DNA of 14,893 nt, taken from positions 1 to 14,893 of the forward strand of contig JAOTWH010000035.1 of NCBI GenBank assembly GCA_029863035.1, in the 5' to 3' direction. The DNA comes from Acidimicrobiia bacterium. Lineage in GTDB: Bacteria; Actinomycetota; Acidimicrobiia; UBA5794; JAOTWH01. The position numbers were made by a program, and so were the translations under genes. Positions 1,087-7,950 of this stretch are shown piece by piece. The first letter of the stretch is position 1; the number at the start of each line of letters is the position of its first letter. The notes beneath the pieces were generated by a model. That model was not told where the DNA came from. It ran no database searches and saw nothing but the letters and a program-made list of their open reading frames with translations.

Positions 1087-2322
1087 CTACCTCGCCGCTT
1101 CCACCCGATAGATGGTCCCGGAACCGAAGCCGAGGTAGATCTCGCCCTGACTATCGGCGCCGATCGAAAGCAGCGGTCCCAGCTCGCCGACGTCGTCTGA
1201 CCAATCGGCCTCGGCAGTGACCTCTCCATCCTCGTAGCGGAAGGACTTGAGCCACCCTCGGCACCAATCGCCGTAGAGATAATGCCCCCACAGCTCGGGT
1301 ATCTCCTGGCCTCGATAGACCGGACCGCCGATGATGGCGCACCCGCGGCGGTGGTGGTAGGTGAGGATCGGTGCGGCGAAGCCCGAATCGATGCACTGAA
1401 CCGAGCCACCGGCGTCGGTCACCTCCTGGGGCACAAAGCATTCGGCCCCCTCGAATACCGGCCATCCGAAGTTCGCTCCCCCACCGTCGAGCGGGATCAC
1501 ATCTATCTCCTCGAACGTTGCCTGACCAACATCGGCGATATACACCAGCCCATCGGTGGCGTCGATGGCGAAGCGCCAAGGGTTGCGCAGGCCGTAGGCC
1601 CACACCTCTGGAGCTCCCGCCTCATCTAGAAACGGATTGTCTGGAGGAATCGAGTAGGGATCTCGGTAGTTCACGTCCAGCCGCACCAGGGTTCCCAACA
1701 ACGTGTCGGACCGCTGGCCGTTGCCGTACATGTCCTCGATGCCTCCCCCATCGCCGAACGAGATCCACAGGTAGCCGTCGGGCCCAAAGCGAAGCTGGCC
1801 GCCGTTGTGCCACTTGTGAGGCTGATCGATCGCGAGGATGACCCGCCCCACGTCCAGATCAGCCACGTCGCTCGTCGGGTCGGCCGAATACTCAACCACC
1901 TTGCTGTCACCTGCGACATCTGTGTACGACACAAAGAAACGCCCGTTGCTCATGAACTCGGGGTGGAAGGCGATATCGAGCATCCCCTGCTCCAGTTCCT
2001 CCGAACCAACCAGGCTTTCGATCTTGAGGAACGGGGGCTCCACCAGCTCGCCGTTGCGGACTATCCGCACCCGGCCCCCCTGCTCCACCACGAAGACCCT
2101 GTCGTCACCCGCCGCGGACGAGATGGCAACAGGGCGATCCAGTCCCTCGGCCACCGCCGTAAGTGCAATGCCCTGCAGTTCTTGGGTCGACTGTGCGGGT
2201 CGAGAAGGCAGGGCGACGTTGAGCGTGGTAGCAGGCGCCACCTGGATGGTCTCTGCCGTGTCGCCGCATGCGGCAGCCACCAGCGCCGCCCCAACCACCA
2301 CGAGCCAGAGGCGAGAGATCAT
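1087..2322 (-). CDS. PQQ-dependent sugar dehydrogenase, lipoprotein (glucose/sorbosone dehydrogenase family), copy 1
   Basis: This 411-residue protein belongs to the soluble PQQ-dependent aldose sugar dehydrogenase family (YliI/GSDH six-bladed beta-propeller), which oxidises sugars outside the cytoplasm. The N-terminus is a lipoprotein signal peptide with a hydrophobic stretch and a VAAAC lipobox (C19). Family motifs in order: LDRPVAISSA (61-70), EQGMLDIAFHPEF (111-123), KWHNGGQLRFGPDGYL (170-185, H172 aligning with the catalytic base), GDGGG, NGQRSDTLLGT, DPYSIPPDNPF and YGLRNPWRFAID (PQQ-site arginines), ending with DWCRGWLKSF. Length is normal for a single-domain member. The ATG overlaps the TGA of the paralogue upstream (ATGA), so translation is probably coupled. 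The true substrate and a PQQ source cannot be read here; apo-like or non-sugar substrates are possible. Confidence 0.9.
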   Translation of the reverse strand: MISRLWLVVVGAALVAAACGDTAETIQVAPATTLNVALPSRPAQSTQELQGIALTAVAEGLDRPVAISSAAGDDRVFVVEQGGRVRIVRNGELVEPPFLKIESLVGSEELEQGMLDIAFHPEFMSNGRFFVSYTDVAGDSKVVEYSADPTSDVADLDVGRVILAIDQPHKWHNGGQLRFGPDGYLWISFGDGGGIEDMYGNGQRSDTLLGTLVRLDVNYRDPYSIPPDNPFLDEAGAPEVWAYGLRNPWRFAIDATDGLVYIADVGQATFEEIDVIPLDGGGANFGWPVFEGAECFVPQEVTDAGGSVQCIDSGFAAPILTYHHRRGCAIIGGPVYRGQEIPELWGHYLYGDWCRGWLKSFRYEDGEVTAEADWSDDVGELGPLLSIGADSQGEIYLGFGSGTIYRVEAAR

Positions 2323-3566
2323 CTCACCGGAACCAGTTTGAGCCCCAGCCCGGCGCCTGTCGTCACATACAGCTCACCGGCATCATCATGACCGAAGCTC
2401 GTGACCTGACCCACCGTGCCGAGGTCGGACGTCCAATCCTTCTGATCTGAAGTGGCATCCCCGTTCCAACTGAAACTGCGGATCCAGCCTCCACACCAAT
2501 CGCTGTAGAAGTAATGGCCGCCAAGTTCTGGCATAGCGGCGCCTCTGTACACGAAACCCCCGGTGACCGAGCAGCCCTGGCCATGGTCGTATGTCAGCGC
2601 AGGATCAACGAAGCTAGAGCAGTCGTCAACCAGGCATCGGTCGCCCTCCGCCGACGACCACCCGTAGTTGAGCCCAGCGACCGAAGCATCCACGACGTTG
2701 ACCTCTTCCCGCGCACCCTGACCCACATCGCCGATGACAATCGTGCCGCCCTCGAAGTCGAAGGCGAACCGCCAGGGGTTGCGCAGGCCGTATGCCCACA
2801 CTTCGGGCGCACCGTTGCCGGAGGTGGCGAACGGGTTGTCCGGAGGGATGGCGTAGGGGTCGCCGGAGTCGATGTCGAGGCGAAGAATGGTGCCGAGCAG
2901 TGTGTCGGGACGCTGCCCGTTGCCGAACTGATCGTCGGCCCCGCCACCGTCCCCGAGAGCCAAATAGAGGTAGCCGTCCGGCCCGAACGCCAGCATGCCA
3001 CCGTTGTGGTTGCTTGCTGGCTGGGCGACTGTGAGCAGCGTCTTGGCCGATTCCGGCTCCGCCATCGTGTCCGAGATGGCGGAGAACTCCGCTAGCTCCG
3101 ACTGCCCACGGGCATTGATGAAGTAGACGAAGAAGCGGCCGTTGTCTGCGTATCGGGGATGAAACGCCAAGCCCAACAAACCCTGCTCCAGGCCCCCGGA
3201 CTCGACGTCGGCCCGGATATCGAGGAATGGCTCGGTTGCCAGCTCGCCGTCGTAGATGAGGATCGAGCCGCCCTGTGACACGATGAAAAGGCGGCCATCG
3301 CCGGGGGGTGCGGTGACGAAGATGGGCCTGTCGATATCACTCGCCACGACCTCCAGCTCGAGGCCAAGCAGCGGCGCCGCGGGCTCGGTAGTTACCGGCG
3401 CCATGGTGGTTGTGGTGGAGGTGGTACCAGGGCCTACCACCGCGGTGCCTGGCGATGTTGGCTCCGGTCCGGTGCGTTGTTGCACCGCGACGTCACTGTC
3501 GGAAGAACAGGCGCTAGCGGCCACGACCAGGGCGACGAACACCATCGGCCGGAAAGGGATGCCCAT
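2319..3566 (-). CDS. PQQ-dependent sugar dehydrogenase, lipoprotein (glucose/sorbosone dehydrogenase family), copy 2
   Basis: This is a 415-residue paralogue of the next gene downstream, with the same architecture. It has a lipoprotein signal ending in ASAC (C20), then a Thr/Pro-rich linker (about residues 36-64), then the beta-propeller. Motifs: IDRPIFVTAPPGDGRLFIVS (78-97), EQGLLGLAFHPRY (127-139), SNHNGGMLAFGPDGYL (185-200, H187 as candidate base), GDGGG, NGQRPDTLLGT, DPYAIPPDNPF, YGLRNPWRFAFD, GCSVTGGFVYRG and DWCGGWIRSF. It precedes the other copy in a two-gene unit with a 4-nt stop/start overlap. The start ATG at 3566 has no clear Shine-Dalgarno sequence; a weak -10-like TAAGCT lies 10 nt upstream (3577-3582). 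The 56-bp gap to the hydrolase upstream leaves open whether the three genes are cotranscribed. Tandem gene duplication followed by divergence is the simplest origin. Confidence 0.9.
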   Translation of the reverse strand: MGIPFRPMVFVALVVAASACSSDSDVAVQQRTGPEPTSPGTAVVGPGTTSTTTTMAPVTTEPAAPLLGLELEVVASDIDRPIFVTAPPGDGRLFIVSQGGSILIYDGELATEPFLDIRADVESGGLEQGLLGLAFHPRYADNGRFFVYFINARGQSELAEFSAISDTMAEPESAKTLLTVAQPASNHNGGMLAFGPDGYLYLALGDGGGADDQFGNGQRPDTLLGTILRLDIDSGDPYAIPPDNPFATSGNGAPEVWAYGLRNPWRFAFDFEGGTIVIGDVGQGAREEVNVVDASVAGLNYGWSSAEGDRCLVDDCSSFVDPALTYDHGQGCSVTGGFVYRGAAMPELGGHYFYSDWCGGWIRSFSWNGDATSDQKDWTSDLGTVGQVTSFGHDDAGELYVTTGAGLGLKLVPVR

Positions 3567-4478: not shown

Positions 4479-4877
4479 CTAGACGCCAGGGTCCGGCCCG
4501 AAACCGAATTCCTCGGCTCGTGCCGAGTTGGGGCAAACAACTGGAATCGAATCGAATCGGCCGTAGAGCCTCTCACCCTGCGACTCCCACACTCCGAAAA
4601 CCGAACCGGAAGCGGATGACGTCCACAGGCAAGTTGCCAGTAGGTCGGGGGATCTGACCAACTGAACACCCGCGACCGATACGTCTTCGGCTAGTGGCTC
4701 ACCATCGTTGGCCACGATCGCGCTGCGCAGATCTGCTGCCGCCGCCACGTCATTGACGCCGTCGGTCAGACCACCGATGGACGCGAAGGCGGTCCCAGCC
4801 AGCAGGGCCACCAGGAAGATCGACACACCCAGCTCTACTGCCTTCACGCCACTGTCATCTTTGATAAGACGAATCAT
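4479..4877 (-). CDS. Flp-type (type IVb) pilin-like protein with C-terminal extension
   Basis: From the ATG at 4877 the product is 132 residues and begins MIRLIKDDSGVKAVELGVSI. This is the Flp prepilin pattern: a short basic leader, a Gly at the prepilin-peptidase cleavage site (G|VKAVE), Glu at +5, then a roughly 20-residue hydrophobic helix (LGVSIFLVALLAGTAFASIG) and a TDGVNDVAAAA stretch resembling the end of Flp. Typical Flp pilins stop there at 50-70 residues. This one carries about 80 more residues with two Cys (CLW and VCP), so it may be a minor pilin or TadE-like component. The frame stays open upstream to a TTG at 4940 (153 residues), but the ATG gives the shorter leader usual for prepilins. 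No Shine-Dalgarno sequence is clear for either. No tad assembly genes are in the window. Confidence 0.65.
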   Translation of the reverse strand: MIRLIKDDSGVKAVELGVSIFLVALLAGTAFASIGGLTDGVNDVAAAADLRSAIVANDGEPLAEDVSVAGVQLVRSPDLLATCLWTSSASGSVFGVWESQGERLYGRFDSIPVVCPNSARAEEFGFGPDPGV

Positions 4878-4959
4878 GTAGCGGCTATCGGGCGAATGGG
4901 AGCCGCCTTGACTGGTACTACTCACGGTGGGCTTGGCCAACCACAGTGAGCGAGGCGAC

Positions 4960-5834: not shown

Positions 5835-7382
5835 CTACAGCTTCTCGGCCACCGTCTTCATCTCCATGAACAACCGCAGATAGTCGGGACCACCGGCTTT
5901 GGAGTTAGACCCCGACATCTTGAAGCCGCCGAAGGGTTGTACACCGACGAAGGCGCCGGTGATCTTGCGATTCAAGTAGAGGTTGCCAACGTGGAGCCGC
6001 CGCTTGGCTTCGTCGAGCCGCGACCGATCGCCCGAGAACAGCCCCCCGGTGAGTCCGAATTCGGTTCCGTTGAAGATGTCGACAGCATGGTCGTAGTCGT
6101 TGGCACGGATCATCGACAGCACCGGTCCGAAGATCTCATGTTGAGCGAGACGAGCATCGGGCGGAACATCGGCGAAGACGGTCGGCTGGATGAACCACCC
6201 GCCGTCGAGGTCTATCGCCGAACCGCCCTGAACGAGCTTCGCCTGGGTCTTGCCTTGGTCGATCTCGTCGAGGATCATCTTGTGCTGGCCGGCGCTGATG
6301 ACCGCTGTGACGGGGAAGTTCTCGGTGGCTGGCCCCACTTCGAGCTCTCCTGTCAAGGCCACCACTCGATCGACGATCTCGTCGTAGACGTCGCCGACCG
6401 CGATCGCTCGCGAGCAGGCAGAGCACTTCTGGCCCTGGAAGCCAAAGGCCGAGCGGACGATGCCCTCTGCGGCAGCGTCAAGGTCGGCGGTCTCGTCCAC
6501 GATGATGGCGTCCTTGCCACCCATCTCCATGTAAGAGCGCTTCAACCAACTCTGGCCAGGATGGACCACGGCCGAACGTTGCGCGATGCGAAGACCGACC
6601 TCCTTCGATCCCGTGAAGTTGATGAACCGAGTCGTTGGGTGGTCGATCAACGTGTCGCCCACCTCTCCACCTGCACCTGGCAAGAAGTTGATCACCCCGG
6701 CCGGGATACCGGCTTCGGCAACGATCTCCATGAACTTGTAGGAGACCATCGGGGTGGCCGATGCCGGCTTCAGCACAACGGTGTTGCCTGCCGCCACGGG
6801 TCCCAGCGCCATGCCGGCGGGAATGGCCAGCGGGAAATTCCACGGCGGTATCGCAACGCCGGCTCCCATCGCCTGGAGCCGCGACTCGTTGACCTCGCCT
6901 TCCATTTGGTAGGTGGGCACCGGCTCGGCCAGGCGACGGGCCTGCACTGCGTAGTAGTCGGCGAAGTCGATCGCTTCTGCGACGTCCCCCTCGGCCTCGC
7001 CCCAGTTCTTGGAGGCTTCGTACGTTTGCCACGCTGCCAATTCGAATTTTCGCTCCGCCATGATGGCGGCCACCCTGGCAACAGCCTCGGCCCGCTCTGC
7101 CGCCGGAGTCTCAGACCATCCCGGATAGGCCTTCCAGGCGGCCGCCAGACCTTGCTCGGCTTGGTCGGGGCTCGCCTTGGACGCGGTACCGACGACCTCA
7201 TCGGGTTTGGACGGATTGACGCTCGTGATGACATCGTCGGTGTCGATCTCCTCGCCTCCGATCACCAGCGGCGCGTGGGCACCGAGCTGGCTCGCCACTC
7301 CATTCAAGGCGAGCTCGTAGGCGGCGCGGCTGGCCGGGTCGGTGAAGTCCGAGTAGAGCGTTGGGCTGTAGTCGTTAGTCAT
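5835..7382 (-). CDS. rocA: L-glutamate gamma-semialdehyde (1-pyrroline-5-carboxylate) dehydrogenase
   Basis: This 515-residue NAD(P)+-dependent aldehyde dehydrogenase performs the last step of proline/arginine catabolism, converting glutamate semialdehyde to glutamate. Motifs: IPPWNFPLAIPAGM (178-191, N182 in the oxyanion hole), the cofactor site FTGSKEVGLRI (256-266), the general base in YMEMGGKDA (E286), and the nucleophile in GFQGQKCSACSRA (C320). The QKCSACSR signature and 515-residue length match the RocA type rather than the bifunctional PutA type. I chose the ATG at 7382 because AGGAGG lies 4 nt upstream of it (7387-7392), although the frame runs open for 64 more codons. A TACTGT -10 box sits at 7400-7405. 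It diverges from the OsmC-family gene. Confidence 0.92.
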   Translation of the reverse strand: MTNDYSPTLYSDFTDPASRAAYELALNGVASQLGAHAPLVIGGEEIDTDDVITSVNPSKPDEVVGTASKASPDQAEQGLAAAWKAYPGWSETPAAERAEAVARVAAIMAERKFELAAWQTYEASKNWGEAEGDVAEAIDFADYYAVQARRLAEPVPTYQMEGEVNESRLQAMGAGVAIPPWNFPLAIPAGMALGPVAAGNTVVLKPASATPMVSYKFMEIVAEAGIPAGVINFLPGAGGEVGDTLIDHPTTRFINFTGSKEVGLRIAQRSAVVHPGQSWLKRSYMEMGGKDAIIVDETADLDAAAEGIVRSAFGFQGQKCSACSRAIAVGDVYDEIVDRVVALTGELEVGPATENFPVTAVISAGQHKMILDEIDQGKTQAKLVQGGSAIDLDGGWFIQPTVFADVPPDARLAQHEIFGPVLSMIRANDYDHAVDIFNGTEFGLTGGLFSGDRSRLDEAKRRLHVGNLYLNRKITGAFVGVQPFGGFKMSGSNSKAGGPDYLRLFMEMKTVAEKL

Positions 7383-7444: not shown

Positions 7445-7474
7445 TATGGTTAGCAACCCGGACGCGGTTGGAGG
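7445..7474 (+). promoter_or_regulatory. -10 box and Shine-Dalgarno site of the OsmC-family gene
   Basis: TATGGT at 7445-7450 is a candidate -10 box. GGAGG at 7470-7474 lies 5 nt before the GTG at 7480 and decides that start. I see no clear -35 hexamer. The promoter faces away from that of the P5C dehydrogenase gene within a 97-bp spacer. Confidence 0.6.
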
Positions 7475-7479
7475 TCACA

Positions 7480-7950
7480 GTGTCAGAAGTCGTGTACCGA
7501 TCCAAAGTGAAGGTCGAACGAGTCAGGGGCCCCATACGCAAGGCGTGGCTTCCCGGGCGCTCGGACAACATCACGTTCGGTGTCCATTCGAGGATCGCCG
7601 AGCATTACAAGACAGACATGGATGCCTACCCGCCCGATGCCACCACTATCGACTACCTGGTGTCGGCAGCCGCTGGCTGACTGACTGGAACCTTCGGAGG
7701 CGCGCTGGAGGCGCGTGGCATCAACGCAAGCAACGGAGACCTCACCTCGACAACGGTCGGGGAGGTCGAGCTGGAAGGAAAGGTCCTGGTAGTGAAACGG
7801 ATTCACGTCACCTACCACTTGGCTGGCGCCAAGCACGAAGATCTCGAGACCATCGAGCGAGTCCACGGCTTCCATGCCGATAAGTGCCCGGTGGCTCGCT
7901 CGATCCGTGACGCCATCGATATCACTACCGAGTTCGAGCTGGTGGGCTAA
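7480..7950 (+). CDS. OsmC-family peroxiredoxin-like selenoprotein with in-frame TGA (probable selenocysteine, U67)
   Basis: Reading from the GTG at 7480 (GGAGG 5 nt upstream) through the TGA at 7678-7680 to the TAA at 7948 gives 156 residues with the OsmC/Ohr fold pattern. OsmC proteins reduce organic hydroperoxides with two conserved cysteines about 66-70 residues apart. The first lies after an Ala/Gly-rich helix ('EE.L..A.A.C....'), the second in a 'CPV...' motif. Here the helix reads DATTIDYLVSAAAG, then the TGA, then LTGTFGGALEARG. The second motif is intact as DKCPVARSI (C136). The TGA therefore replaces exactly the peroxidatic Cys, 69 residues before C136. The 89 codons after it stay in frame without another stop and remain family-like. 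A hairpin at 7701-7715 fits a bacterial SECIS. OsmC-like selenoproteins are a described class. The alternative is a Cys-to-stop pseudogene (one base change), but the SECIS-like hairpin and intact downstream frame argue against it. An automatic caller would stop at 66 residues. Confidence 0.85.
7678..7680 (+). other. In-frame UGA, probable selenocysteine codon
   Basis: TGA in frame with the GTG at 7480, codon 67. It occupies the conserved peroxidatic Cys position of the OsmC family and is followed by C, a weak termination context. No start codon that could restart translation lies in the first codons after it. Confidence 0.82.
7701..7715 (+). promoter_or_regulatory. Candidate bacterial SECIS hairpin
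   Basis: A perfect 5-bp GC stem (CGCGC 7701-7705, GCGCG 7711-7715) closes the loop UGGAG (7706-7710), with a further G-U pair at 7700/7716. The loop starts 25 nt after the UGA and has G at its second position. Both properties lie within what is accepted for bacterial SECIS elements (G among the first loop bases; loop roughly 16-37 nt from UGA). A weaker 3-bp hairpin (CCU/AGG, 7691-7700) could compete. Confidence 0.7.

Follow-up and report, generated by a model that had tools for sequence, protein, structure and literature searches.

OsmC-like selenoproteins have been known since 2005 from the Sargasso Sea and GOS surveys (PMC1088965, PMC2398784), which contribute three and five sequences, respectively, with the motif UxxT, where U is selenocysteine (Sec). 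A review likewise gives the OsmC-like selenoprotein as PF02566 with the motif UxxT (PMC13188914), and an earlier, sequence-only reading of the locus studied here was right to count OsmC-like proteins among the described bacterial selenoproteins. A second described system is Sec encoded by UAG in Geodermatophilaceae, for which the accessible text of the report names formate dehydrogenases, UGSC-motif proteins and AhpC, and no OsmC protein (PMC5330540).

The gene examined here lies in a 14,893-nucleotide stretch of DNA from an Acidimicrobiia bacterium, analysed as a whole and called the window below. It shares with the published OsmC-like selenoproteins the superfamily and the placement of Sec (here predicted) at the N-terminal redox Cys. 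It differs in motif, U-L-T-G-T (UxxG) as opposed to UxxT, the comparison being made with the motif as published, and because of this difference, UxxG(T) against UxxT, we treat it as a separate subfamily. Its relatives in Geodermatophilaceae carry TAG together with a CUA tRNA-Sec, like the UAG selenoproteins in the available text of PMC5330540, whereas the window gene itself carries TGA; UAG-coded members of a UxxGT OsmC clade did not appear in the accessible text of the literature searched. Positions 7480-7950 very probably encode a 156-residue OsmC-family selenoprotein in which TGA codon 67 is predicted to be read as Sec. The gene probably belongs to an undescribed clade of predicted UxxGT OsmC selenoperoxidases with members in at least Actinomycetota, delta-proteobacteria and Gemmatimonadota, in which Sec and Cys have been swapped several times and the active-site codon has switched from UGA to UAG together with the anticodon of tRNA-Sec. 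Such a clade would add a subfamily to the OsmC selenoproteins.

An OsmC reading frame spans an in-frame TGA

The frame runs from GTG 7480 to TAA 7948-7950 with a single internal stop, TGA 7678-7680 at codon 67, which is also the only stop in this frame between 7369 and 7948. Its features are as follows.

7470..7474, + strand: GGAGG, ribosome-binding-site-like, 5 nt upstream of GTG 7480 (direct reading)
7480..7950, + strand: predicted OsmC-family selenoprotein gene, 156 residues with U67 (frame, Pfam, selection, modelled fold)
7678..7680, + strand: in-frame TGA, predicted Sec codon 67 (TGA, TAG or Cys in DNA relatives; anticodon match)
7700..7716, + strand: GC hairpin 20-36 nt 3' of the TGA, candidate bacterial SECIS (family-level codon constraint)
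7885..7887, + strand: TGC for C136, predicted resolving cysteine (direct reading; invariant in 70 aligned sequences)

Direct reading confirmed the frame as first described, broken once at codon 67 and preceded by GGAGG 5 nt before its GTG. Assignment to the OsmC family also stands: the Pfam model PF02566 matches across the TGA (residues 57-151, E 3e-12, 47.2 bits against a cut-off of 27.5). The second Cys motif that had been pointed out, DKCPVARSI, contains TGC at codon 136, and C136 is invariant in a 70-row alignment. The nearest relative of the window gene is L001, from an Acidimicrobiaceae MAG, at 73-74% identity, and dN/dS between the two is 0.15 before the TGA and 0.19 after it; both halves are under purifying selection. 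Uninterrupted homologues align end to end with both halves, which together with these ratios disfavours a chance open frame.

Codon 67 is a stop or a Cys codon in related DNA

Relatives were sought in one genome per species with patterns of which none touches codon 67; of 130 pattern-matching stretches, 22 encode a relative. At the column of codon 67, 13 of these 22 similarity-found loci (one of the 22, L016, cut by a contig end) have TGA and the other nine TAG; a sense codon never occurs there, and the remaining protein is intact. The TGA loci include four from Acidimicrobiaceae or Acidimicrobiia (L001, L002, L005, L016), the others coming from Nitriliruptoraceae, two Haloechinothrix, one actinomycete MAG, three Gemmatimonadota, one delta-proteobacterial symbiont and one further bacterium. 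All nine TAG loci belong to Blastococcus, Modestobacter or Geodermatophilus. In a wider set, 92 of 93 sources could be placed at the column, giving 75 TGA, nine TAG and eight Cys codons (repeats of the same genome included); the degenerate paralogue L110, which has no motif, was left out of this count, and dropping six identical stretches reduced 92 to 86. The TGA thus sits where related DNA has Cys, TGA or TAG, as expected from the proposal that it occupies the Cys position of the family and that homologues should show Cys or TGA there. The exceptions among otherwise intact sister copies are the second copy in G320, which has decayed, a cut piece in G184, and L110; this result speaks against the decay raised earlier as a possibility. 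Because 44 of the 71 OsmC-domain matches in the 22 genomes have no internal stop, such stops are confined to the window-gene type and five other OsmC-domain matches.

The tRNA-Sec anticodon tracks the stop codon

The 22 genomes that hold the closest loci were searched for Sec machinery. Over the cut-offs, tRNA-Sec, SelB and SelD were each found in 22 of 22 and SelA in 20 of 22 (not found in G008 and G011), compared with five, two, two and one, respectively, of 14 control genomes at the same cut-offs. In ten of the 22 (G001-G022), selD itself carries one in-frame TGA; Sec-containing SelD is known. The window's own organism presumably has the same machinery, to judge from the genomes of its relatives.

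The best tRNA-Sec found by ARAGORN has the anticodon UCA in 13 of 13 TGA genomes and CUA in nine of nine TAG genomes. ARAGORN labels the CUA tRNAs tRNA-Pyl, but they reach 64-67 bits with the Rfam tRNA-Sec model, whose cut-off is 47; three of them, compared with all of Rfam, matched tRNA-Sec each time. True Rfam tRNA-Sec matches in the 22 genomes score 57-81 bits. Codon and anticodon agree in four further genomes, as TGA with UCA in G290, G407 and G632 and as TAG with CUA in G693. The proteins of G632 and G693 are identical at 122 of 145 residues (84%), yet both codon and anticodon differ between them. UAG-coded Sec was reportedly first described by Mukai and colleagues in 2016. If the present reading is correct, codon-anticodon covariation inside the UxxGT clade amounts to a natural experiment that reveals decoding, and the switch from UGA to UAG, matched by tRNA-Sec, would offer a clean comparative system for the replacement of a recoded codon.

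Larger genome samples, whose phylum names were inferred, gave a related picture. Among 396 sampled genomes from the phylum of G001, a relative occurs in 46 and the stop form in 41, which take in one 55-residue match and two of UMMGT type. SelB, called at E 1e-64, occurs in 34 of these 41 and in 184 of the 355 others (Fisher 1e-4, a value that is too small because related genomes, here counted as independent, are not). Two of the seven stop-form genomes without SelB have tRNA-Sec(UCA); neither SelB nor tRNA-Sec was found in the remaining five of 41, likely owing to incompleteness. In the same phylum, SelB was found in none of the five genomes that have stop-free forms only. Rfam tRNA-Sec matches lie just over the cut-off in three of these five (47.9-50.9 bits), and ARAGORN identifies the matches in these genomes as tRNA-Ser. 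In 198 genomes from the phylum of G009, 20 have a match; 19 of the 20 carry TGA, 17 of the 19 being of UMMGT type. The SelB and tRNA-Sec search in that sample covered G009. Overall, the state of the column, the Sec machinery of the relatives and an anticodon that follows the stop codon uphold the original reading of a probable selenoprotein, and these comparisons strongly support SelB-dependent Sec insertion at the UGA as the predicted decoding event.

A position-specific hairpin follows the codon

We scanned 404 possible helices against a null of synonymous recoding. Of 50 distinct TGA genes, 40-41 retain stems located about 20-36 nt 3' of the codon, compared with 2.6-4.7 expected, and the best z was 18.7 with a null maximum of 3.6. 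After thinning to 16 genes the hairpin is kept in 11-12 against 0.4-1.0 expected. The initial register (+20/+34) had been chosen by eye; the scan favoured adjacent registers with the same arms. Separate helices were found for the TAG genes (z 6.2) and the UMMGT clade (z 4.9), and no helix exceeds z 1.7 in Cys genes, a control set of only eight that includes the distant L102 (57 bits).

The stem at 7700-7716 in the window has a predicted energy of -9.7 kcal/mol and a pair probability of 0.68. It is not more stable than shuffled sequence (z 0.37; 127 of 200 shuffled versions fold as well or better), and in the main TGA group the folding energy of the 54 nt 3' of the codon is not below that of synonymous recodings (mean z -0.17). 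Over the same 54 nt, z is -2.05 for the TAG genes and -0.91 for the UMMGT clade. Since overall folding energy is no better than in synonymous recodings, the argument for a candidate SECIS rests on the position-specific hairpin.

Database records and alternative readings

A protein database search returned 426 relatives, of which 120 were listed and sorted into classes by sequence patterns. Among these 120 matches, 70 span the column (37 with Trp, 32 with Cys, one with Leu), 45 are pieces of the C-terminal half beginning past the stop, and five fit neither class. The entry derived from the window, P0018, is such a piece, with 89 residues that begin directly after the TGA; the expectation of a 66-residue N-terminal annotation therefore failed, the database holding the opposite half. 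A likely selenoenzyme whose stop form occurs in 41 of the 396 genomes sampled from its phylum is stored in databases largely as a half-length piece that lacks the active-site residue.

These pieces, together with the CTG directly 3' of the TGA in the window, are what one would see if termination and reinitiation, or two genes, gave a 66-codon first part and a separate second half starting from that CTG. We consider this highly improbable. The break would fall inside the modelled helix 56-77, so that neither half could be expected to fold alone, and Cys homologues span it. Reinitiation also leaves unexplained both the pairing of TAG with a CUA tRNA-Sec and the absence of SelB from the five stop-free genomes. 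Readthrough with Sec remains the preferred reading of codon 67.

The Leu row, P0002, is a 63% identical homologue on a 5.9 Mb contig, and it demonstrates that a sense codon is possible at the Sec column. With this and a single stop dividing the two halves of a known domain, one could suppose that an ordinary OsmC gene acquired the TGA by a recent nonsense mutation, or that one of its Cys codons was miscalled as TGA. The likelihood of this is minute: all 22 independent loci have a stop at the column and keep both halves intact, purifying selection acts on the two halves, and TAG appears exactly where the tRNA-Sec anticodon is CUA. The conserved stop refutes a pseudogene.

The Trp rows reach 90% identity to the TGA gene L009 among the matches listed, and because one of them is this close, Trp in 37 of the 70 spanning proteins listed appears to be mistranslated TGA. 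That TGA is instead naturally read as Trp, by a changed code or read-through, has next to no probability: those 37 database rows favour it, but Trp is encoded in none of the 92 placed DNA matches, the rows themselves have the look of mistranslated TGA, in L001 TGA occurs inside the gene and again as its final stop, TAG takes the place of TGA only in genomes with a CUA tRNA-Sec, and the other residue at the column is Cys. The claim that this column holds only Cys or Sec accordingly survives for loci read as DNA (TGA, TAG or Cys) and meets exceptions in the database, namely Leu in P0002 and Trp in the spanning rows.

Fold and proposed chemistry

A structure model of the window protein has the OsmC/Ohr fold, with codon 67 within the long helix 56-77. 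Structural alignments of the model with E. coli OsmC (1nye) and OhrB (6eb4) give about 13-14% identity. Sequence searches of the PDB returned no match at E 0.001; in a weak profile alignment (E 0.009), positions 67 and 136 both fall on Cys of 2pn2. The SACOL1771 family peroxiredoxin model TIGR03563 scores 23.1 bits, below its NCBIfam cut-off of 166.15. In contrast to the OsmC/Ohr organic hydroperoxide reductases, which have Cys at this site, the window protein has predicted Sec, and its peroxidase activity is likewise a prediction.

In the mechanism that we propose, SelD and SelA would make Sec on tRNA-Sec(UCA), and SelB, docked on the hairpin at 7700-7716, would bring it to the UGA. By analogy with general knowledge of OsmC/Ohr enzymes, the U67 selenolate in the middle of helix 56-77 would reduce a hydroperoxide, C136 would resolve the resulting selenenic acid to a selenenyl-sulfide, and a dithiol partner would then reduce the selenenyl-sulfide. 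We infer decoding in the window's organism, the peroxidase chemistry, the substrate and the reductant. If this is correct, the gene points to a predicted Sec-based peroxide defence in Acidimicrobiia and their relatives.

The UxxGT clade and other OsmC genes with in-frame TGA

A tree of 56 rows, in which 13 of 19 paralogue rows were kept and six left out, places 41 sequences of UGA, UAG, UMMGT, ULLGT and Cys forms in one group (97/99). Outside it lie 13 other OsmC paralogues and two UxxT-type TGA genes, L134 and L135; the order among these outside rows is unsure because some are long branches. The four TAG rows form a single clade that joins three TGA rows (95/93), and the Cys label requires five changes on the tree, two of the changes being forced by well-supported branches. 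BLASTP of L134 and L135 gave no match to the window gene at 1e-3.

Several further OsmC-family genes with an in-frame TGA were observed. A second gene, of UxxT type (UMLT, ULLT), lies at L134:253-561 (- strand) and L135:327-635 (+ strand) in G001 and G004. TGA-bearing genes of a UMMGT clade (L085-L101, L111, L112) come from 17 genomes in the phylum of G009 and two in that of G001. The paralogues L136-L138 read ULLGTLNG in Gemmatimonadota (G022, G020) and UASM in the delta symbiont G009.

Gene neighbourhood

In Haloechinothrix aidingensis (L007:8001-12509) selA and selB separate the OsmC gene from selC, which is about 4 kb away. This OsmC-selA-selB-selC arrangement was not seen elsewhere among the 22 loci, L007 alone having an ARAGORN tRNA-Sec within the locus. 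An ORF group common to many loci proved to be antisense to OsmC and was discarded. In the window, an L-glutamate gamma-semialdehyde dehydrogenase gene (5838-7382, - strand) is divergent from the OsmC gene; the pair also occurs in L002, at 66% identity, and is the only neighbour in common in our comparison. Elsewhere in the window are two tandem glucose/sorbosone-dehydrogenase-like genes (1090-3566, - strand; PF07995) and a small ORF (4479-4940, - strand) whose N-terminus, judged by eye, is pilin-like.
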